From positions 1 through 30,199 of the IMG/VR virus record IMGVR_UViG_3300042312_000034: a stretch of 30,199 bases of DNA; one strand, written 5' to 3'. The translations under genes were made by a program, and so were the position numbers. A model generated the notes under the pieces. That model had not been told where the DNA came from, did not search any database, and saw only the letters and a program-made list of their open reading frames with translations. Below, piece after piece: positions 8,313-27,115 of the stretch. How positions within the stretch are numbered: the first letter of the stretch is position 1; every line of letters starts with the position of its first letter. The DNA is from a virus.

Positions 8313-8550
8313 TACGCAGTACGATTTGATCTAGTTTGTTTTCGATGCGAATCATGTGATCCTCCATCTTTTGTAAGGCGTTAGCTAGCTCTTGCCTTGG
8401 GACGTATTTCTCAGCAAACCTCAATTCAATGGAATCAATACGTTTATCTAGTTGATCCATACGAGTGTTTGATTTGCTGTTCATAGCTGCAATACCGCCA
8501 CCAATGCCAATCACTAAAGACGCAACGCCTGTGATAAGGGCTTCAATCAT
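8305..8550 (-). CDS. Holin-like membrane protein with C-terminal coiled coil, 81 aa
   Basis: One transmembrane segment at residues 4-23 (ALITGVASLVIGIGGGIAAM) is followed by a charged helix with heptad spacing (MDQLDKRIDSIELRFAEKY, then LANALQKMEDHMIRIENKLD). This is the shape of small phage holins and holin-associated proteins. The gene begins inside the last four bases of the endolysin gene (ATGA), forming a lysis pair. It would let the endolysin reach the cell wall. A second small membrane protein lies on the other side of the endolysin (9518-9724), and sequence alone does not show which is the true holin. Confidence 0.65.
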   Translation of the reverse strand: MIEALITGVASLVIGIGGGIAAMNSKSNTRMDQLDKRIDSIELRFAEKYVPRQELANALQKMEDHMIRIENKLDQIVLRNG

Positions 8551-9515
8551 TTCTTTTGGTTAATGATGTTCAATAGTTTAGTGCTATAGTTGGGATCAGT
8601 GGCGTATCCCTCTTTAATTAAAAGCTTGCAACACTCCTCTATGGAAGAGGCACGGTTGACGCCTTTATATGTTTTGTAGTCCTTGTACCAGCGTTGTACT
8701 AAGTACGACACACAAGATTGTAGGTCAGGGAAGTTAAGGAACCCAGCAGTAATAGTGATCCACTTACCATCAATAAACTCTTTTGTCTCATGGTCAGTGC
8801 CAGATCCCTTGAGACCAAAGTAGTTGTTCTTACCGGAAGTATGCTTACCCCAGCCACTCTCTAGTGCCCATTGTGCAGCTACTACTTGTGGGAACTTAGC
8901 ACCTGCCTTAGAGGCTGCAGTAATGACTCCCTCCCAAGTGTTAGCAACGGTAGCGATAGGTTGCGGGGTATTGGTTGGGCGGAAGGTCATGAACCAGCCA
9001 GTACCTTTACCTTCTACTTCCCAACGCTTTAACCAGTTATGCCAGGTATACTTGACATCCTTACCACCACTGCCAATAGTGACGTAACCACCATTGACAT
9101 TATCCATCTCACCGTATGGATCGTGGAAGATACCGTGTTCTCCATCATCACCAATGAGTAGCATCCAATGACCACCACCAACAGGGTTTGATGCATGACC
9201 TTTATGTAGGATGCCAGTAGCAACTGGATAACCTGCCTTTAGTTCGTTGATTAGTGCTTGCTTAGTACCTTTTTGGTAGAAGGTAGCAAAGACACCATAC
9301 TGCTGACAGGCTTTAACTTGACTAGTAGAGGATGTAGTATCTCCATACTTAAGTACTGTACGGAGGTAATCATCATCTGCATTACTACCCTTAAGGGCAT
9401 CAGGAAGGAGATACTTGATAGCCATAGCGCATGTTGAGCTAAAGCACATCCGATCTCCGTGACCTGTTGCACTATCTGTTTGGGGGTAGTATTGTTTAAC
9501 AGGCAGCAGTACCAT
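8547..9515 (-). CDS. Two-domain endolysin: C39-like peptidase plus glucosaminidase
   Basis: The 322-aa protein should cleave the host cell wall at lysis. Residues 1-175 look like a C39-type cysteine peptidase: Cys24 in DRMCFSSTCAMAIKYL, His116 in GGGHWMLLIGDDG and Asp132 in FHDPYGE would form the catalytic triad. Residues 190-320 match the glucosaminidase family (FlgJ/AcmA type), with catalytic Glu219 in QWALESGWGKHTSGKNNYFG. No signal peptide is seen, so release depends on a holin. The neighbours are small membrane proteins on both sides. The glucosaminidase half is closely similar to residues 735-855 of the gp15-like virion protein of this same phage, at protein and DNA level. Confidence 0.88.
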   Translation of the reverse strand: MVLLPVKQYYPQTDSATGHGDRMCFSSTCAMAIKYLLPDALKGSNADDDYLRTVLKYGDTTSSTSQVKACQQYGVFATFYQKGTKQALINELKAGYPVATGILHKGHASNPVGGGHWMLLIGDDGEHGIFHDPYGEMDNVNGGYVTIGSGGKDVKYTWHNWLKRWEVEGKGTGWFMTFRPTNTPQPIATVANTWEGVITAASKAGAKFPQVVAAQWALESGWGKHTSGKNNYFGLKGSGTDHETKEFIDGKWITITAGFLNFPDLQSCVSYLVQRWYKDYKTYKGVNRASSIEECCKLLIKEGYATDPNYSTKLLNIINQKK

Positions 9516-12348: not shown

Positions 12349-15300
12349 TTAGCGATACATTTGAGTAAGTCGTTCAATCCTTGCCTTACGACGATCAGCA
12401 GCTCGTGCAGCATCATCAATACGACCTTGACGCATCATATTCTTATTAGTCAGTGACTCTTGAATAGAGCGCCACATCGGTTCATTTTCTTGCTGCATAC
12501 GAAGTTCAGCAGCCTTCTGAGCTTGAGACATGATGTCATTCATTACTGAATAGACTTCACTTTGAGCTGCTTGTATCTCCTCAGATGGACGACCTTGTAC
12601 TCGCATTGCACGAATACGATCCAACTGATCGTTATACTTTTTGTTCTTACTGAGTTTATCGAACTCCTTCCACAGTTGTTGTTCACCGATGTACTTATAC
12701 AGTACTTCACGTTCCTGTGGGGTGTATTCGTGGTTACCAGAGGAGTCTTTACGAATCATTTGGATACCATCCCAACCACTATCGATCAACCACTGACGCC
12801 AAGGCTCAGTACCTTCACTGATCTTAACTGGGTTAACAGCATTAAGAGCACGTAGGACTGGGTTATCGATATCGTTTACAGGCTTACCTGTGTAAATATC
12901 AATCTGTTCAGGAAGCTGACTGGAGAAGCCAGGCAGTCTGTTCTTAACATAACCTACAAGGTCATTGTAGATATCCTTTTGGGAACTAGTGATGGCATTA
13001 TTAACAACACCAAGAGCACCAGACATAGGGATAGCAGATCGTGTTTGATTAGCAAGATAGCGAGAGATAGCAGTCTCATCACCGTTAGCAATGGAAACAA
13101 TAGGCTCTAAACCAGCAACCCAGGTCTTATTAACAAATGTAGCAGCAAGAGTCCACGCTAATTTTTTACCAAAGTCCTCAGTCAGAGTAGAGCCGATATC
13201 ACGGGAGTAATAAGCAAGGTCGCCAACAAGAGTAAGGATAGTGTCGAGGGGTTCATAACCAGCATAGCTTACCCACTTACCAGCAACATTGATGGTTTTA
13301 GGTTGCCAGTTAAAGTTATCACGCATCTTCCTACGCTCACCATCATTAACAGGACCATTGCCACGAATGTTACCAGCAAGAGCGTATCCCATCATAGACG
13401 TAGACAGCAGTGCACCAAAGGCTACACGACCACGGTATTCAGCTTCTAGGCCCTTGAAGATAGCCATACCATTAGGTACGCCATCATAAGCAATACCGTG
13501 CTCCATAAGAGCATCTTTAATCTTGTCGATGTCATCACCAGCCCACAGTACTTTAGAGTACTTATTCATACCAGGTAGGGTGGCAATAGGAGTATAAGAC
13601 ATCGCCATCTTAACACCATTAACACCTGTACTAGGGAACATAAAGAAGCCCTTTAGGAGTGGAAACTTGTTGATACCACGTGTAATAGCAGTAGCTAGCT
13701 CACTATCCAAGTTAAGTGCAATCTCCCCAGCAGCATTCTTAGCAGCAGCATCAGTGAGGTTACCGAGAGCATCAAACGCTTCATTATAAGCAATCTTCTC
13801 AGCCTTAGCCAACTGTTGTGCTAGTTCAGATCCCCTGTAACCAATACCAAAAAGTTCATCCCATGCACGTGCACGAGCCATTTGAGAGGCTATAGTGCTT
13901 TGTACAAAAGCATCAGCACTAATCATTGCATTGGTGCCATACTTGGCCCAACGCCAGTTACCAAGGTCATACAAGAACCTAGCTGAACGGTATTGGAACA
14001 ACTGACCCCAGTTACCGTCCTTCTCCCACACCTGTTCCATATCAGCAAGGGTGTCCCAAAGGTTAGGGTTATAGTCAGTAACAAGGTCTTCACGAGCTAG
14101 TTCACGGAAGTCCATAGTTGCATCATTACCCCACTTACCGTTATTCCAGGTACGCTTGAAGGTGTCCCAAGAAGTACCAAGCGCCCGTTTATTAACAGTC
14201 AAAAATGAACCGTAAATATAGGTTGCCCTACGAAGGTCATCAACGGTGTTCCTTCCCATCAGCATACCGATACCAGTACCAAGATATGCATTGCTAGTAC
14301 GGAGCGTAAGTGATACAGTGTTACCAGTGATAGCTTTGACAGCTGAGATGCCAGACAACACATTGTTGTACACCACTGCCCATGCACCTTGTGCAAAGGC
14401 ATTCAAACCACCGTCACTATTATAGATAAGACCCATAGGGCTTGTTTGCTTAGCACTCCACTTCATCAGCTTATCAAGAGAGTCCACATCGCCCTTAGAC
14501 AATGCAAATGCATCGATAAGGGGTTGAGCAGCATCAGGACGATCACGAGCAATAGTCCTAATCATATCCCGATAGCCTTGTGCTTGCAGGTTCTTCTCTC
14601 GTACCTTAAGGTCAAACTGTTCAGTGACCTGCCTAATAGCAGACTCCTTATCAGGTGCCTCTTTGAGGAACTTCTGCCAACGGTCTTGGTTCTTAAGTGC
14701 CCAACCTGCGATGTACTTATTAAGGGCGTACTCTTCCATAAGGAAGGCTAATCGATCACCAAGCATCTCAGTGGTACGGCCAAGGTCAGCAGTCTCAGGG
14801 AATGCCTTATAGCCCTCAGCAATGTCAGCTACTTCACGTCCTACGGTATCCATAGCACGAGCTGATGTTTCAGTAACAACTTGACCGATGTACTTATCAG
14901 TCAGTTCACGCATAGCAAAGCCAATAGCTTCTGCTTGAACATCGTTAACATACTTAATAGAGCGACCATCAAGCAAGTTCTTAACATCACGGTTATCAAG
15001 GAAGAGGTTCTTGAGATCAGATACCTTATCAGTACCGATGATGTCATTGTAGATCTTCCATGCAGCATCACTCATCTGAGCCTTAGTGTACCTAAAGCCC
15101 TCTACCGTTGCATCAAAGCTACCAGTAGCACGAGTGCCTTCAGCTAGGTCTTCGATGAGGTTACGGGATACAGCATTACCTTTACTAAGGTCGTAGTAGG
15201 CACGCTCAGAAAGGATAGGAGCAGGGGTACCACCACTGTTACCAAGCTTGATAGCAGTAGTGTCAGCCATGTTACGGGCAATGTTACCAGGAGGGATGCT

Positions 15301-16572
15301 AAGAGCAGCAGTAGAACCCTCAGGGAACATGTTAGGAGTGATCATAGGATCAGTGCCGCCAGCCCCTTCAGGATCGTCCATAAGGCGCCCTTTACCTACC
15401 TCATCGATCTGACTATCACGGCTGACCTGTTGACGCTCTACAAACGATTCTAGAGGGCTCTCAGTGAGGTCTGAGGCTCCGGTATCAGCGTACTGTTTAG
15501 TTAACGTGTCTAATTCGTTTTGTAATACTTTCACTTGAGATTTTATGTCATTGACAGCAGCAAGCTTAAATGCAAAAGTTTCAGCATCATCGGCAGGTAG
15601 TTCCCTCAACCTATCTACTTCTAAATTTAATTCATCTAATTGAGTATTTATTTCAGACAACCGAGTAGCAGTAGCAGCATCAGCATTAACCATCACCTCA
15701 GAGGACATGAACTCCTTAGCTGCTGTATCATTAGGCTTAAACCAATCCATTACTCCACGACCTGCAGCAGCAGAGTAACCAATGATATCACCAACAATGC
15801 TGATACCAGCTGATTCGTAGATGTTACGTTGACGACGTTGTTCAGGAGAGTCAGTATCCTTAACGACAAGTGCATCAGGAACAGGCAACCAAGGGGCTGC
15901 TTCTTTCACAATCGTCGATACTGTCTCACCCTCAGATTGATCACTGATAGCGTTAATAGCGACATCACCAGCAACGTTAATGCCAAGTGCAGAGAGACCA
16001 CGAGCAAGAGGACCACCAGCCATACCAGCAGTAGCAACACGTGATGCAGCACCAACACCAATACTAGGTACAAGGACAGAAGACACTTCCCTTACCTTTT
16101 GAAAGCCAGGGTTCTTGAACTTTGTCTTAGCATCCCAGGCGTCATCAATCCACTCAGCACCAGGGATACGACCAATGGCATCCATACCAAAGTCAATGAT
16201 ACCCATGCCAACGGATCCAAGACCCTCAAGGGTACGTTGAGCATAGGTACCTAGATCCTCACCAAGTGTAGCGTTAGGGTCACCGCTACCATAAATGAAG
16301 CCACTACCTCGATTGAGTGGTTGTTGTGGTTGTTGAGGCTGCTGTTGACCACCACCAGTAAGCTGTTGAACGGCTTGCTGTTGAGGTGACTTAACAGGTT
16401 GTACATTACCAGCAGCTTGGTTCTGAGCTGGTGTAGCCTCCTTGTACATTGTTTCAGGAGCTGTCTGAGGACTATAAGCTGGAGCTGCCTGTTGCAAGGC
16501 TTGCTCTTCAGCAAGTGCTTCAGCTTCTAGACGCTTCAGTTCTTCTTCATCCACATAAGGGGTACTAGTCAT
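12349..16572 (-). CDS. Internal virion protein, gp16-like, 1407 aa
   Basis: By size (T7 gp16 is 1318 aa), order and neighbours this is the largest ejected core protein, which extends the tail channel across the envelope so that DNA can enter. Residues 1-90 are Gln/Pro-rich. Residues 160-215 are Gly/Ala-rich and hydrophobic (SSVLVPSIGVGAASRVATA), a likely membrane-inserting part. A coiled coil follows at about 300-360 (TRLSEINTQLDELNLEVDRL). A hydrophobic stretch around 1090 (GALLSTSMMGYALAGNIRGN) and a basic C-terminus (RKARIERLTQMYR) are also seen. I see no lytic transglycosylase motif of the kind T7 gp16 has at its N-terminus; the wall-cutting function seems moved to the gp15-like protein upstream. 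The start overlaps that gene by four bases (ATGA). Confidence 0.88.
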   Translation of the reverse strand: MTSTPYVDEEELKRLEAEALAEEQALQQAAPAYSPQTAPETMYKEATPAQNQAAGNVQPVKSPQQQAVQQLTGGGQQQPQQPQQPLNRGSGFIYGSGDPNATLGEDLGTYAQRTLEGLGSVGMGIIDFGMDAIGRIPGAEWIDDAWDAKTKFKNPGFQKVREVSSVLVPSIGVGAASRVATAGMAGGPLARGLSALGINVAGDVAINAISDQSEGETVSTIVKEAAPWLPVPDALVVKDTDSPEQRRQRNIYESAGISIVGDIIGYSAAAGRGVMDWFKPNDTAAKEFMSSEVMVNADAATATRLSEINTQLDELNLEVDRLRELPADDAETFAFKLAAVNDIKSQVKVLQNELDTLTKQYADTGASDLTESPLESFVERQQVSRDSQIDEVGKGRLMDDPEGAGGTDPMITPNMFPEGSTAALSIPPGNIARNMADTTAIKLGNSGGTPAPILSERAYYDLSKGNAVSRNLIEDLAEGTRATGSFDATVEGFRYTKAQMSDAAWKIYNDIIGTDKVSDLKNLFLDNRDVKNLLDGRSIKYVNDVQAEAIGFAMRELTDKYIGQVVTETSARAMDTVGREVADIAEGYKAFPETADLGRTTEMLGDRLAFLMEEYALNKYIAGWALKNQDRWQKFLKEAPDKESAIRQVTEQFDLKVREKNLQAQGYRDMIRTIARDRPDAAQPLIDAFALSKGDVDSLDKLMKWSAKQTSPMGLIYNSDGGLNAFAQGAWAVVYNNVLSGISAVKAITGNTVSLTLRTSNAYLGTGIGMLMGRNTVDDLRRATYIYGSFLTVNKRALGTSWDTFKRTWNNGKWGNDATMDFRELAREDLVTDYNPNLWDTLADMEQVWEKDGNWGQLFQYRSARFLYDLGNWRWAKYGTNAMISADAFVQSTIASQMARARAWDELFGIGYRGSELAQQLAKAEKIAYNEAFDALGNLTDAAAKNAAGEIALNLDSELATAITRGINKFPLLKGFFMFPSTGVNGVKMAMSYTPIATLPGMNKYSKVLWAGDDIDKIKDALMEHGIAYDGVPNGMAIFKGLEAEYRGRVAFGALLSTSMMGYALAGNIRGNGPVNDGERRKMRDNFNWQPKTINVAGKWVSYAGYEPLDTILTLVGDLAYYSRDIGSTLTEDFGKKLAWTLAATFVNKTWVAGLEPIVSIANGDETAISRYLANQTRSAIPMSGALGVVNNAITSSQKDIYNDLVGYVKNRLPGFSSQLPEQIDIYTGKPVNDIDNPVLRALNAVNPVKISEGTEPWRQWLIDSGWDGIQMIRKDSSGNHEYTPQEREVLYKYIGEQQLWKEFDKLSKNKKYNDQLDRIRAMRVQGRPSEEIQAAQSEVYSVMNDIMSQAQKAAELRMQQENEPMWRSIQESLTNKNMMRQGRIDDAARAADRRKARIERLTQMYR

Positions 16573-19568
16573 AAGGTTTTACCATGTAGGAAACTGAAAC
16601 GCCGTCCATCCGGCAGTTGAATAACCAACTTATCTCCATGTTGTGTACGAGTTTTTGATACGATACGTGCTCCATTCTGGAGGAACACTTTAGATCCCTT
16701 AGCTGTGCCGTAATCAATACCGTGAGAACCACGGGCTACATGACCAGCAAAGGTATCAGTGACAGGAATACGACTCAAAGGAACACGTCCGAATTGAGGA
16801 TCATCAACAACGACAAAGTTATCTAGTGCTTTAGATGAAAACTCCCTAGCAAATTCATTCTGTGGTGTGTTAGGGTTGTCTTGTTGTTTAACATCTAAGT
16901 GAGGACCAGTAGAGGTAGGTCCAATGTTATCTGTGATGTAAGCAAGGGTGGGACGCATAAATGCTTGGTTACGTGCAGGAGTAGCTGCAGCAGCAGGTCT
17001 ATATGGTTGATCAACGTTGACACCCATCTGTTGCATCACACGAATGATCTTACTAGGATAGGCAGCTTCACCACCAGCATAGCCACCAGCTGCAATAGCT
17101 TCGATAGCTTGACGTGGTGTCTGAGCCCTTGACAGTCCAGGTGCATACCTAGGATCAGTCATGAGGTTCATGAAATCTCTAGCAGACTCAAGAGGAGAAG
17201 CATAGTCTCTCCAATAGGAACCGTTCTTTTGTGTACCTTGACCAGGACGTGCTTTGATGTTAAAGACATTATTCTTACCTGAGGTATACTTACCCCAGCC
17301 AGACTCCAATGCCCACATAGCAGCCATTACCTGGGGGAACTTAAACCCAGATGCAGTACCAAGGGATTGTACATCAGCATATCCACTGTTACCTGTACGT
17401 ACAGTAGCAGGTGCATTACCACTACCGATGATAGTAGTGTTAAGACGGTCTTGAGTAAGAGGTTGATCCAATATACGACGCAGCACAGGATCATTAATTT
17501 GATTCAGTTGATCCCTAAATCCTGGCTGGACCCGTTGACTAAGCCCTGCTGCTGCAAGTTGAGCATTAAGGATCTGAGTAGGACTCATACCAGGTACTGC
17601 CCTAGACAAATCAGTATAGATCTGTGGAATAGAAATAGGCTTACCACTGGCAATGCGATTATCAATATCCTTGAGTAGAGCAGGGCTAGCTAGTACTTCA
17701 GTGTTAATTACATTACTGTTAGCACGTACCTTCTTAACAACTTCAGAGGTAGTGATGACGTTGATAGCAGCAGGAGCACCAGGATGTTTACCAGGTGTAA
17801 AGGCAGCATAGAAAGCTTGTGTTTGACCTGTCTTTGCTTGAGAGGAAGCAATAACAGCAAACGCACCTTTCTTAGTTTCGATAGCAGTTAGAACATCCAG
17901 TCGTGCTTTATTAGCAGCAACAGCAGGTTCCATCGTCTTAGCGTACTGCTTGAACTTCTGGTTATACAACCTAAGTGCAAAATCAGATGCACCACGTAGG
18001 CTATAGTGAGCAGCACGGTTAGTACTATCACCAATCAAGTTCTGTTTGAGAGCATCGCTTAGTTCAGCTTTGATGGTCTCTTGTTTGATACCAGAATCAG
18101 ATCGTTGCTGATCTAGCTGCTGAGCACGTGTACGCCACGTCTCACGTACTTCAATAGGTACACCAGGTTGATCAACATCATCAGCAGTGAGAGTACCTTG
18201 TTCGTATTGCTCACGGAACTGCTTACCCCAGAAGTCAGCGTTTTGCTGTTCAGTGGTGAAGGCCAGATATGCTTTGAGACGATCAGTGTTGATGCCTTTT
18301 GTTGCTGACTCTTTGATGATAGATTGGAGGGTTTCTTCATTGGGGTTGTTGTTCTTTACCCAATCAAGTAACTGATCCTCTTGCTTCTTATTCTCACGAC
18401 GCGCTTGTGCTTCAACAAGCTGGAACTCAGACTCTTTATCTTTTTGTCTGGCATTACGTAGGTCGTCAACATCACGAGGAAAACGATCATACCAGCTACC
18501 TTGATCAGTCTGTGCCTCTTTAAGCATACGCTCAGCGTCAGCATCTGAGTAACGACTGGTATCAGCGAGTTCCTTAAAGATCTCAGCTTTAGCAATTGTG
18601 TTGCCGACAGGTGTTACACCATCTTCCCTGTAGCTACGTGAGGCGGTCCTAAATGCCTCAGTAAGGCTTTCTCCAGTCTTAGTACGTGACATACCACTAA
18701 AGGCATCATCACGCATCATGGAGGACTTATTGACTACATCAGATTTCCTAGCTGCTTCAATAAATGAACCATAAACTCCCCTCATCTTCATAAGGGCAGG
18801 TGCCATGAAATCAGCACTAAGACCAAAGACACCATTATCTTTCAGGAACTGCCCAAAGATCTCCTGCATTGCTGCGGTACGTTCTGGGGCAGTAACAGCC
18901 TTCATCTCATCCAGTCTGGATTGAGCGTAGTTAGGAAACTCAGCAGTGATGATCTCCATGTGAGCCTTAAGGCGACCGTAGTCACGTGCCTTATTGCCAC
19001 TGAGTAGGTTTGTAACAACAGTAGGATTCAATCCTCTAGCTTGATATCCTTCAGCAATTTGATCCTGTGCTTCACCACTTAGCTTAAGTAGTGTCTCAGC
19101 ATTAGTTACTGCTTGCTGGCGTTCCGGTGTGAAGCCACCAGTAGCTACTTCCATGTAGCCAGCCATCATATCAGACTCCTCTTTAACCTTACGATATTCA
19201 GTAAGGCCTTCGCTAAGAGTTGTGCTGAATTTGGCTAGACTTTCAAATGTAGCTTCTGCATTCTTACCACGCTGCAGCTCACTTTGAATGAGTGTTTGTG
19301 CATTCTTACTGATAGCTTCCTGACGTTTCTCAGAAAGCTTCTTTTCCCACTGATAGTTCTGATCACGATCTCGTGCTTCGATGCTGAGCTTACGTTCAAG
19401 CCCAGCACCATACTCGTCTCTAACCTGTTTAATGTCCCTACGGTTCTCTTCCATACCACGTATGATACGGCTGTCTCGTTCTTGCATCCTAGCAAGACCT
19501 TCCGTAGGTGCTTTAATAGGATCGAAACCTATACTCCGGGCGTACCCTCTGTAATTTACTTGATCCAT
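16569..19568 (-). CDS. Internal virion protein, gp15-like, with glucosaminidase and M23-like parts
   Basis: The 999-aa protein stands where T7 has gp15 (747 aa) and is longer because of a wall-degrading end. Residues 1-700 are mostly charged helices (KQVRDEYGAGLERKLSIEAR), the ejection-core part. Residues 735-855 match the glucosaminidase family, with Glu755 in MWALESGWGKYTSGKNNVFN. Residues 883-999 look like an M23 peptidase in altered order: STGPHLDVKQ (His890, Asp892), normally the last motif of M23, comes first, and HGIDYGTAKGSKV (Asp952) and FSFLHG (His995) come last. The protein probably opens a hole in the peptidoglycan during entry. Its glucosaminidase is a near relative of the endolysin's. 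It is followed by the gp16-like gene with a four-base overlap. Confidence 0.88.
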   Translation of the reverse strand: MDQVNYRGYARSIGFDPIKAPTEGLARMQERDSRIIRGMEENRRDIKQVRDEYGAGLERKLSIEARDRDQNYQWEKKLSEKRQEAISKNAQTLIQSELQRGKNAEATFESLAKFSTTLSEGLTEYRKVKEESDMMAGYMEVATGGFTPERQQAVTNAETLLKLSGEAQDQIAEGYQARGLNPTVVTNLLSGNKARDYGRLKAHMEIITAEFPNYAQSRLDEMKAVTAPERTAAMQEIFGQFLKDNGVFGLSADFMAPALMKMRGVYGSFIEAARKSDVVNKSSMMRDDAFSGMSRTKTGESLTEAFRTASRSYREDGVTPVGNTIAKAEIFKELADTSRYSDADAERMLKEAQTDQGSWYDRFPRDVDDLRNARQKDKESEFQLVEAQARRENKKQEDQLLDWVKNNNPNEETLQSIIKESATKGINTDRLKAYLAFTTEQQNADFWGKQFREQYEQGTLTADDVDQPGVPIEVRETWRTRAQQLDQQRSDSGIKQETIKAELSDALKQNLIGDSTNRAAHYSLRGASDFALRLYNQKFKQYAKTMEPAVAANKARLDVLTAIETKKGAFAVIASSQAKTGQTQAFYAAFTPGKHPGAPAAINVITTSEVVKKVRANSNVINTEVLASPALLKDIDNRIASGKPISIPQIYTDLSRAVPGMSPTQILNAQLAAAGLSQRVQPGFRDQLNQINDPVLRRILDQPLTQDRLNTTIIGSGNAPATVRTGNSGYADVQSLGTASGFKFPQVMAAMWALESGWGKYTSGKNNVFNIKARPGQGTQKNGSYWRDYASPLESARDFMNLMTDPRYAPGLSRAQTPRQAIEAIAAGGYAGGEAAYPSKIIRVMQQMGVNVDQPYRPAAAATPARNQAFMRPTLAYITDNIGPTSTGPHLDVKQQDNPNTPQNEFAREFSSKALDNFVVVDDPQFGRVPLSRIPVTDTFAGHVARGSHGIDYGTAKGSKVFLQNGARIVSKTRTQHGDKLVIQLPDGRRFSFLHGKTL

Positions 19569-19584: not shown

Positions 19585-20523
19585 TTAATCTACTCCACCT
19601 ATGGAATTAATCCGCCCACCTGCTGTAGGAAGTGTACTTGGAAGTTTACTTGGTAGTGTAAAAGGATACCTATCCTTAGAGCCGATAGCTCCAGCAATAC
19701 TAGTCAAACCTTGAGTAGCTGCTCCCATCCAAGACCCAGTAGAAGATGCCATAGCACCTTTAACAGGCTTAGGACCGAAGTCAAACGCTTTAGGTTTACG
19801 TGGCTTGAGGTACTCAGCACGTGGTGTAGTAAGAGGTTTAGGTGGTTGTGGGAGACGATCAGGACGCAGCATACGGCTAGCTTCTGCTGCAAGATCGGCA
19901 CCAAACTTATCGTTAGCAATCTTACGTAGAGCAGCTCCTGTATCAGCCTTAGCACTCAACAGTGACTCAGCAAGGATAGCTTGGTTACGACCAAGAGCAG
20001 CAAATTCAGCTTGCTCCATCTTCTCTGCACTTCTACCTTGCTGACCTTTAACAGCAGCGGTGCCTTCAGACTGTAGTGCTTTGATGACAATATCTTGGTT
20101 CTGGAAGGCCATCTCTTTCATGGTGTCTTCCAGTTTACGGTATTCAGCTTCATTGGCGGCAGCTTGTGCCATCTGGTTGAAGGTTAACTGCTGACCGTAG
20201 ATCTGCTCAGACTTAGCGTATTGCTTCATCTGAGAAGCATACTCAAAGTCTTGAATCCTTAAGTTATACTGCCAATCTTGAAGGTTGGTAGCATCCTTAA
20301 ACGCGGCTAGAGTCTCCTCGTTTTGTTCATTAAGACGCCACTGTTTAGTACTGTGACGCCAATCAGCCATGGTACTACGTCTACCATAGCGCCAAGCTTG
20401 TGTATTATATTTATGCTGAGCCTCTATGGCTGCATTCTGTGCATCAGCTTCAGCCTGACCACCTAGGCCGCCCATAACGGCACTACCTATCCCAAGGATT
20501 GCGCTAATTGGATCAAATGCCAT
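19585..20523 (-). CDS. Internal virion protein, gp14-like, 312 aa
   Basis: Order (after tail tube B, before the gp15-like gene) and form point to the third ejected protein; T7 gp14 is 196 aa. The N-terminus is hydrophobic and Gly-rich (ISAILGIGSAVMGGLGGQAE), able to enter the outer membrane. Residues 24-200 form long charged helices (DWRHSTKQWRLNEQNEETLA, MKQYAKSEQIYGQQLTFNQM). The C-terminal 90 residues are Pro- and Gly-rich (RPDRLPQPPKPLTT, then GGRINSIGGVD). A full Shine-Dalgarno (AGGAGGT) lies inside the last codons of tail tube B and decides the start. The extra length over T7 lies mainly in the Pro-rich tail. Confidence 0.85.
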   Translation of the reverse strand: MAFDPISAILGIGSAVMGGLGGQAEADAQNAAIEAQHKYNTQAWRYGRRSTMADWRHSTKQWRLNEQNEETLAAFKDATNLQDWQYNLRIQDFEYASQMKQYAKSEQIYGQQLTFNQMAQAAANEAEYRKLEDTMKEMAFQNQDIVIKALQSEGTAAVKGQQGRSAEKMEQAEFAALGRNQAILAESLLSAKADTGAALRKIANDKFGADLAAEASRMLRPDRLPQPPKPLTTPRAEYLKPRKPKAFDFGPKPVKGAMASSTGSWMGAATQGLTSIAGAIGSKDRYPFTLPSKLPSTLPTAGGRINSIGGVD

Positions 20524-25705: not shown

Positions 25706-26767
25706 TTAACCAATGATAGGTGCAGTGTATGTAGCCAAGTCAAGTGGGAAGTTGTGAGCATTACGTTCATGCATCACTTCAAAACCAAGACCAGCTCGGT
25801 TAAGAATGTCAGCCCAAGTGTTAATCACCTTCCCTTCAGAGCTGACAAGGCTTTGGTTAAAGTTAAACCCATTCAGATTAAACGCCATAGTAGATACACC
25901 AAGAGCTGCGAACCAAATCCCTACCACTGGCCATGCAGCGAGGAAGAAATGAAGCGAGCGCGAGTTATTGAATGAGGCGTACTGAAAGATGAGTCGCCCA
26001 AAATAACCATGAGCGGCAACGATGTTATAAGTCTCTTCTTCTTGACCGAACTTGTATCCATAGTTCTGAGATACTTCTTCAGTCGTTTCACGAACAAGAC
26101 TAGACGTAACCAGACTGCCATGCATCGCACTAAACAGGCTGCCACCAAATACACCGGCGACTCCAAGCATATGGAATGGGTGCATAAGAATGTTATGTTC
26201 AGCCTGGAATACCAGCATGTAGTTGAACGTTCCGCTAATCCCCAAAGGCATAGCATCACTGAACGACCCTTGCCCAAAGGGATACACCAAGAAAACTGCG
26301 GTAGCCGCCGCCACGGGAGCAGAGTATGCGACAAAGATCCAAGGCCTCATTCCTAGTCGATAGCTAAGTTCCCACTCTCGTCCCATGTAAGCATAGATGC
26401 CAATGAGGAAGTGGAATACTGTAAGTTGGAATGGACCCCCGTTGTAGAGCCATTCATCAAGTGAATTAGCTTCCCAAATTGGGTAGAAGTGAAGTCCGAT
26501 GGCATTGCTGCTCGGAACGACGGCTCCCGATATGATGTTGTTTCCATACATTAAACTCCCAGCAACGGGCTCACGGATGCCATCAATATCGACAGGGGGA
26601 GCCGCAATGAATGCAATGATAAAACATGTAGCAGCAGCCAGCAAGCAAGGGATCATAAGAACCCCGAAGTGGCCAATATAAAGACGATTGTTTGTACTGG
26701 TTACCCAGTTCAAGTAAGAGTCCCAGGAATTAGTCCGGGACTGAGGGGCTGCAAGTGTAGCAGTCAT
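25706..26767 (-). CDS. psbA: Photosystem II D1 protein
   Basis: Phage D1 replaces the host's rapidly damaged D1 so that electron flow continues during infection. The 353-aa protein has five membrane helices and, with one residue inserted near the N-terminus, all key residues at +1: Tyr(Z)161 in [11 protein letters not shown], Asp170 in SFSDAMPLG, Glu189-His190 in [12 protein letters not shown], His198, His215 in AMHGSL, Ser264 and His272 in NNSRSLHFF, and His332-Glu333, His337, Asp342 and Ala344 in [15 protein letters not shown]. Glu stands at position 130 (GREWEL), the high-light form. Odd points are His instead of Trp32 (YIGHFGV), Thr at 155, and a C-terminal extension of only eight residues (TYTAPIIG) after the processing site, about half the usual cyanobacterial length. 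It lies between scaffold and capsid genes, after an RlpA-like gene. Confidence 0.99.
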
Positions 26768-26773
26768 GTGTAG

Positions 26774-27115
26774 TTAGTTAAGACGTGTTACTTTAACTCG
26801 CCCAACGCCAGAGGCAGTGAGACCGATAGCATCAGCCGCACCTTTACTGAGATCAAGACTCCTACCATGAATGTAAGGTCCTCGATCATTGACCGTCACC
26901 ACGGCACACCTCTTAAAGCAAGCACGTAAACGTGTGCCAAAGGGGAGTGTCTTGTGCGCTGCAGTAAGGCCGTTTTGATTGTATCGAGATCCACTCGCAG
27001 TAAGGTTACCATGGAAACCAGGACCATACCAAGAGGTAATCACCGACAGAGTAGTTAGAAGAGGTAGCATAATAAGGTAGCAAGGAACATTAATATTTCC
27101 ATCTACACCTGACAC
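26774..27115 (-). CDS. RlpA-like double-psi beta-barrel protein with N-terminal membrane anchor
   Basis: The family core is complete: SWYGPGFHGNLTASG (28-42), LTAAHKTLPFGTRLR (50-64), VVTVNDRGPYIHGRSLDLSK (72-91, with the conserved Asp76 and Asp88), and GVGRVKV near the end. In bacteria RlpA binds or cuts peptidoglycan; the Pseudomonas protein is a lytic transglycosylase. I take the GTG at 27115 as start because it gives a full hydrophobic segment (VPCYLIMLPLLTTLSVITS, 10-28) as anchor or signal peptide. An ATG at 27070 would leave a very short one. There is no SPOR domain, so septal targeting is absent. The gene sits inside the photosynthesis cassette, six bases before psbA, and is co-transcribed with it. 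A hairpin precedes it (27155-27190). It may act on the wall at late infection. Confidence 0.88.
   Translation of the reverse strand: MSGVDGNINVPCYLIMLPLLTTLSVITSWYGPGFHGNLTASGSRYNQNGLTAAHKTLPFGTRLRACFKRCAVVTVNDRGPYIHGRSLDLSKGAADAIGLTASGVGRVKVTRLN

Follow-up and report, generated by a model that had tools for sequence, protein, structure and literature searches.

M23 peptidases belong to the most common wall hydrolases. The question raised by the locus examined here is whether the end of a gp15-like internal virion protein, in which motifs of that family appear in a changed order, represents a circularly permuted M23 domain, and whether such a domain is likely to function. The window (the whole 30,199-nucleotide stretch of DNA that was analysed, IMG/VR record IMGVR_UViG_3300042312_000034) derives from a psbA-bearing T7-like cyanophage, in which the gp15-like gene occupies a T7-type position between probable gp14-like and gp16-like genes:

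12349-16572, minus strand: gp16-like internal virion protein (phrog_6651, E 1.5e-298)
16569-19568, minus strand: gp15-like internal virion protein, a 999-aa ORF (PHROG 24152, E 2.5e-284)
19585-20523, minus strand: probable gp14-like protein, 312 aa (by position; phrog_20153; weak match to phrog_15746, 'internal virion protein')

The 999-aa protein is homologous to proteins of S-CBP1 and P60 that are annotated as hypothetical or as internal virion protein. No transglycosylase, nor any Pfam domain above cut-off, was found in the gp16-like protein. Elsewhere in the window, psbA (photosystem II D1) lies at 25706-26767 and a ThyX-type thymidylate synthase at 1684-2316, both on the minus strand. A DPBB_1 (RlpA/expansin-like) protein of 113 aa (26774-27115, minus strand) adjoins psbA and is possibly also wall-active, and a likely endolysin of 322 aa (8547-9515, minus strand) combines a C39-like peptidase domain with a Glucosaminidase domain, the latter sharing 33% identity over 123 aa with its counterpart in the gp15-like protein.

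The preliminary description had pointed to GPTSTGPHLDVKQ at residues 883-895, resembling the final motif of M23 peptidases, followed rather than preceded by SHGIDYG (948-954) and FSFLHG. The first two were found in the ORF exactly as described; the third is also present, at residues 991-996 and not 992-996 as first given. The order H(x)nD, then His, then HxH that characterizes M23 is thus absent from residues 874-999, where it is circularly permuted. The C-terminal region is laid out as follows, all on the minus strand:

17025-17336: Glucosaminidase domain PF01832, residues 745-848 (E 6.8e-17; 62.7 bits, above the Pfam gathering cut-off of 30.2)
16950-17024: linker, residues 849-873, between the Glucosaminidase match and the permuted domain
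16572-16949: circularly permuted M23 domain, residues 874-999 (rotation tests; AF2 model)
16881-16949: N-part, residues 874-896, the normally last M23 segment (...IGxxSTGPHLD..), with His890 and Asp892
16782-16880: linker that connects what were the C- and N-termini, residues 897-929, of varying length among members
16572-16781: C-part, residues 930-999, the normally first M23 segment (HxxRGSxGxDY ... FLHG), with His943, Asp952 and His995

Permutation was assessed with an HMM built from 25 canonical M23 domains, used to score each sequence after rotation at every position. For each of the 36 cyanophage members the best rotation point lay, within one residue, at HLD or directly behind it, and ahead of the RGS motif. 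The gain for single sequences is small in many members, the domain of the window rising from 14.5 to 15.5 bits. Profiles were compared as well: in native order the 36-member cyanophage profile matched canonical M23 with a score of 41.0 over columns 8-61, half of its length and corresponding to the C-part, and after rotation with a score of 55 over columns 8-93, nearly full length, at 96% probability. This rise to 55 was obtained only with cuts in the linker, between HLD and HxxRGS. Against PDB, the best match of the family profile was a solved M23 peptidase (E 6.3e-7), and the 26 matches listed were all M23, lysostaphin-type or M23-carrying phage proteins; the two halves were swapped in every alignment shown, with the N-part placed after the C-part along the solved M23 chains. 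PF01551 recognized 20 of the 36 cyanophage members unprompted (best E 4.2e-4); it gave no match above the Pfam cut-off to the domain of the window itself, native or rotated. With that domain in isolation, Pfam, PHROGs and NCBIfam yielded no specific family beyond PHROG 24152, and a single-sequence search of PDB yielded chance matches only.

Since native order gives a strong match for the C-terminal half alone, it might be argued that M23 homology is limited to this half and that the STGPHLD segment is a chance or convergent look-alike. That explanation, which we hold to be very improbable, appears already disfavoured by profile evidence: shuffling the columns of the N-part abolished the gain (41.3 +/- 0.9, maximum 49.2, with none of 100 shuffles reaching 54), and the N-part of a second group of permuted domains, in tape-measure proteins, aligned by itself to canonical columns 75-97 at 93.9% probability. 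Aligned without the cyanophage sequences, these tape-measure relatives proved collinear with the cyanophage family (96.4%, E 1.2e-9), and their score against canonical M23 rose from 55 in native order to 95 when rotated. In one of them (L485) the end of the PF01551 profile comes first in the native sequence, and the rotated sequence passes the curated Pfam cut-off (30.0 against 28.7). The circular permutation proposed in the preliminary description is thus strongly supported at the level of sequence profiles, by rotation, shuffles, alignments of the family profile to PDB chains and the tape-measure relatives alike.

Relatives gathered from IMG/VR and phage records include related permuted domains in hundreds of phage sequences. 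The motif order recurs in 118 distinct domain sequences; these come from internal virion proteins of cyanophages and from tape-measure proteins of Acinetobacter, and 23 of them are of the Acinetobacter type. A sequencing artefact was rejected as an explanation, the same order being present in three isolates (P60, S-CBP1 and DSL-LC07) and in many independent contigs. The same permuted domain is present in tape-measure proteins from phages of Acinetobacter and Moraxella and from Moraxellaceae genomes, with further copies in Moraxellaceae phages and prophages. These domains (L168, L174-L255, L474-L486), whose proteins have no annotation beyond tape measure or tail protein, share the order and opening point of the cyanophage family, and many share its HLD; they differ in their H(x)3D spacing, in the HLH of some members, and in being embedded in tape-measure proteins. 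In one (L474) an SLT-like stretch, as read by eye, comes after the permuted domain. A first genome scan using the cyanophage alignment gave no matches. A search of Pseudomonadota located permuted copies only in Moraxellaceae, the other matches examined being canonical, and tblastn matches in Acinetobacter phage Ab1656-2 and Vibrio phage L3 were dismissed as chance. A free tree separates the cyanophage and tape-measure groups; a single origin is not rejected (p-AU 0.10), and with 107 columns only and several long branches the tree is compatible with either one or two permutation events.

An AF2 model of residues 856-999 is confident and mainly beta (mean pLDDT 86.8, pTM 0.80), and a second AF2 model reached a pLDDT of 78.9. 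The 50 best PDB matches listed by Foldseek, a method that depends on chain order, include no M23 fold for either model. Under an M23 assignment the larger half might have matched in part, and that it did not counts against the assignment. The viral models retrieved were all of homologous internal or tape-measure proteins. The confident single-chain model bears also on a different arrangement, in which each chain would contribute two incomplete half-domains that complete one another between subunits of a gp15 ring. Rings are indeed formed by gp15-type proteins (PMC8954989), and half-domains could pair between subunits in such an assembly. However, the linker is long enough for a closing domain within one chain, the domain is also embedded in tape-measure proteins, and in one carrier (L363) another domain follows it. 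Such swapping therefore strikes us as hardly credible. The following domain in L363 is apparently of lysozyme type, as read by eye, and the permuted domain thus need not end a protein.

In canonical M23 peptidases the metal is held by the H(x)nD pair and the second His of HxH, while two further histidines, the first one of HxH and one lying upstream, act on water; n varies, being 3, or 7 in phi29 gp13, or 12 in LasA (PMC9662197). The corresponding positions of the permuted domain, on the minus strand, are:

16899-16901: His890, equivalent of the general base LytM His291; invariant in the 36-member alignment
16893-16895: Asp892, at the place of LytM His293, the third metal ligand; HLD in 95 of 95 distinct cyanophage domains of permuted order
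16740-16742: His943, put forward as first metal ligand, in H(x)8D; present throughout the 36-member alignment, 95 of 118 overall
16713-16715: Asp952, equivalent of the metal ligand LytM Asp214; 118 of 118
16584-16586: His995, equivalent of LytM His260; 118 of 118

The 36-member alignment, in which identity falls to 37%, retains 23 invariant columns, among them STGxHLDVK, His943, Arg946, Ser948, Gly950, Asp952 and His995. An H(x)nD pair is therefore available as His943-(x)8-Asp952, and His995 supplies the catalytic His of YxHL. Four of the five residues suggested earlier as a metal site (His890, Asp892, Asp952 and His995) are invariant in cyanophage members. The fifth, His949, had been put forward as a stand-in for the first ligand beside Ser948, and was abandoned because this residue varies among the 118 sequences (H in 73, K in 23, F in 9 and Y in 9). 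The conserved first ligand is more likely to be His943, six residues before it, whose H(x)8D spacing is near the H(x)7D of phi29 gp13; the 23 sequences lacking His943 are of the Acinetobacter type, with H(x)3D.

The replacement of the second His of HLH by Asp892, noted in the preliminary description, is real, with His890-Leu-Asp892 giving HxD in every cyanophage member examined; the count of 95 refers to domains selected on the C-half only, seven of them read from printed rows. The sole HLH case in that selection was a Microbacterium tectivirus protein of canonical order, with the same HxxKGSxGID spacing as cyanophage members. HxD in place of HxH, a motif that helps define M23, counts against assignment as an M23 metallopeptidase, as does the His-Asp-Asp metal site that would result, which would be unusual for a lysostaphin-type fold. 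A rival reading is that the permuted M23 fold no longer catalyses and serves as a peptidoglycan-binding or structural module, much as degenerate LytM factors such as EnvC and NlpD do. The third-ligand His has become Asp892, the first metal-His position is Ser948, and degenerate M23 folds serving other functions have been described (PMC9662197). We nonetheless consider this unlikely, in view of the invariance of the candidate metal and catalytic residues down to 37% identity, with His943 in place of the displaced His. Asp at the third ligand occurs in many, not all, tape-measure relatives; four permuted ones (L475, L484, L485 and L486) keep HxH, and members with HxD and HxH are neighbours in the tree (L474/L483 beside L475/L486), which suggests that Asp does the job of the third-ligand His. 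In addition, some carriers possess no other wall-cutting domain detected by Pfam. Of the two outcomes suggested earlier for metal binding, altered or lost, the first fits better, given the conservation of the candidate residues and the purifying selection on the domain; these patterns favour a site that works in altered form.

That selection is strong, with dN/dS of 0.04-0.11 for the permuted domain, the lowest among regions longer than 100 codons in five of six comparisons. The domain is the best conserved part between distant carriers, and in P60 the only part that aligns; the preceding linker (849-873) is the least conserved stretch in some comparisons (for example, 45-50% identity). Its companions vary, including Glucosaminidase in the window, SLT, and Phage_lysozyme2 in P60 (below cut-off), and Pfam found no glycosidase in three carriers (L384, L166 and L388). 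In a close relative (L083:1052-4363) SLT precedes the permuted M23 domain and the Glucosaminidase region has no Pfam match, possibly an enzyme swap in progress.

Overall, residues 874-999 are probably a circularly permuted M23 (lysostaphin/LytM-type) metallopeptidase that would cut the wall at entry. This seems the best reading in light of the purifying selection, the conservation, the company of glycosidases, a gp16-like protein without transglycosylase, and the precedents of hydrolase swapping and of A-4L discussed below. In this reading the chain is opened after the 'YxHL' His motif, so that the normally last segment comes first, with linker 897-929 joining the old termini. The sequences show the motif order, the homology, the conservation, the purifying selection and the domain company; what we infer, namely the metal set, activity, bond specificity, timing and periplasmic delivery, would run as follows. 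The site would probably take the M23 form: His943 and Asp952 would make up the H(x)8D pair, Asp892 would stand where a third His ligand is usual, and His890 and His995 would activate water. The T7 gp15-type protein presumably reaches the host periplasm during ejection. There its Glucosaminidase domain would cleave glycan strands, and the permuted peptidase stem peptides or cross-bridges, clearing a way through the wall for the DNA tunnel. A bolder proposal, quite unlikely in our estimation, is that permuted M23 domains form a separate active lineage with a His-Asp-Asp site, perhaps permuted more than once, and that they were selected for because their new termini would suit an enzyme bound to unfold, pass through the portal and refold in the periplasm.

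Several known systems offer points of comparison. With M23 itself (PF01551; LytM, lysostaphin, ShyA) the rotated profile matches over nearly the whole domain, and the domain has H(x)nD together with the catalytic His that lies upstream in M23 and the first of the two histidines of HxH; the differences are the permuted order, HxD for HxH, the H(x)8D spacing of the first ligand, and a score below the Pfam cut-off. The internal protein of Anabaena phage A-4L, identical to PDB chain 9k2v_E, is a cyanophage internal virion protein with M23 and transglycosylase, but its M23 domain is canonical, collinear with other canonical chains. That of Mastigocladus phage CHP58 likewise contains M23, but in canonical order with HLH. 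The T7 ejection proteins gp15 and gp16 are alike in position and size class, although in T7 the transglycosylase resides on gp16. K1E gp35 is a gp15-like protein that also has a wall hydrolase, and swapping of hydrolases between gp15- and gp16-like proteins has been described, with no M23 domain mentioned for T7 gp15/gp16 or K1E gp35 (PMC8954989). A precedent comes from the NlpC/P60 family, which has wall hydrolases among its members and also enzymes whose catalytic domain is circularly permuted (PMC6403190), although theirs is an unrelated cysteine-peptidase fold. No description of a circularly permuted M23 domain was found in the open-access literature searched, and its novelty is provisional since the search covered open-access papers only.

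Annotation that depends on motif order misses permuted M23 domains, and carriers among isolates are labelled 'hypothetical', 'tape measure' or 'internal virion'. The change from HxH to HxD among close relatives offers a natural test of the extent to which an M23 metal site can be altered and apparently still function. For the T7-like cyanophages, the permuted M23 domain points to a likely enzyme of entry.
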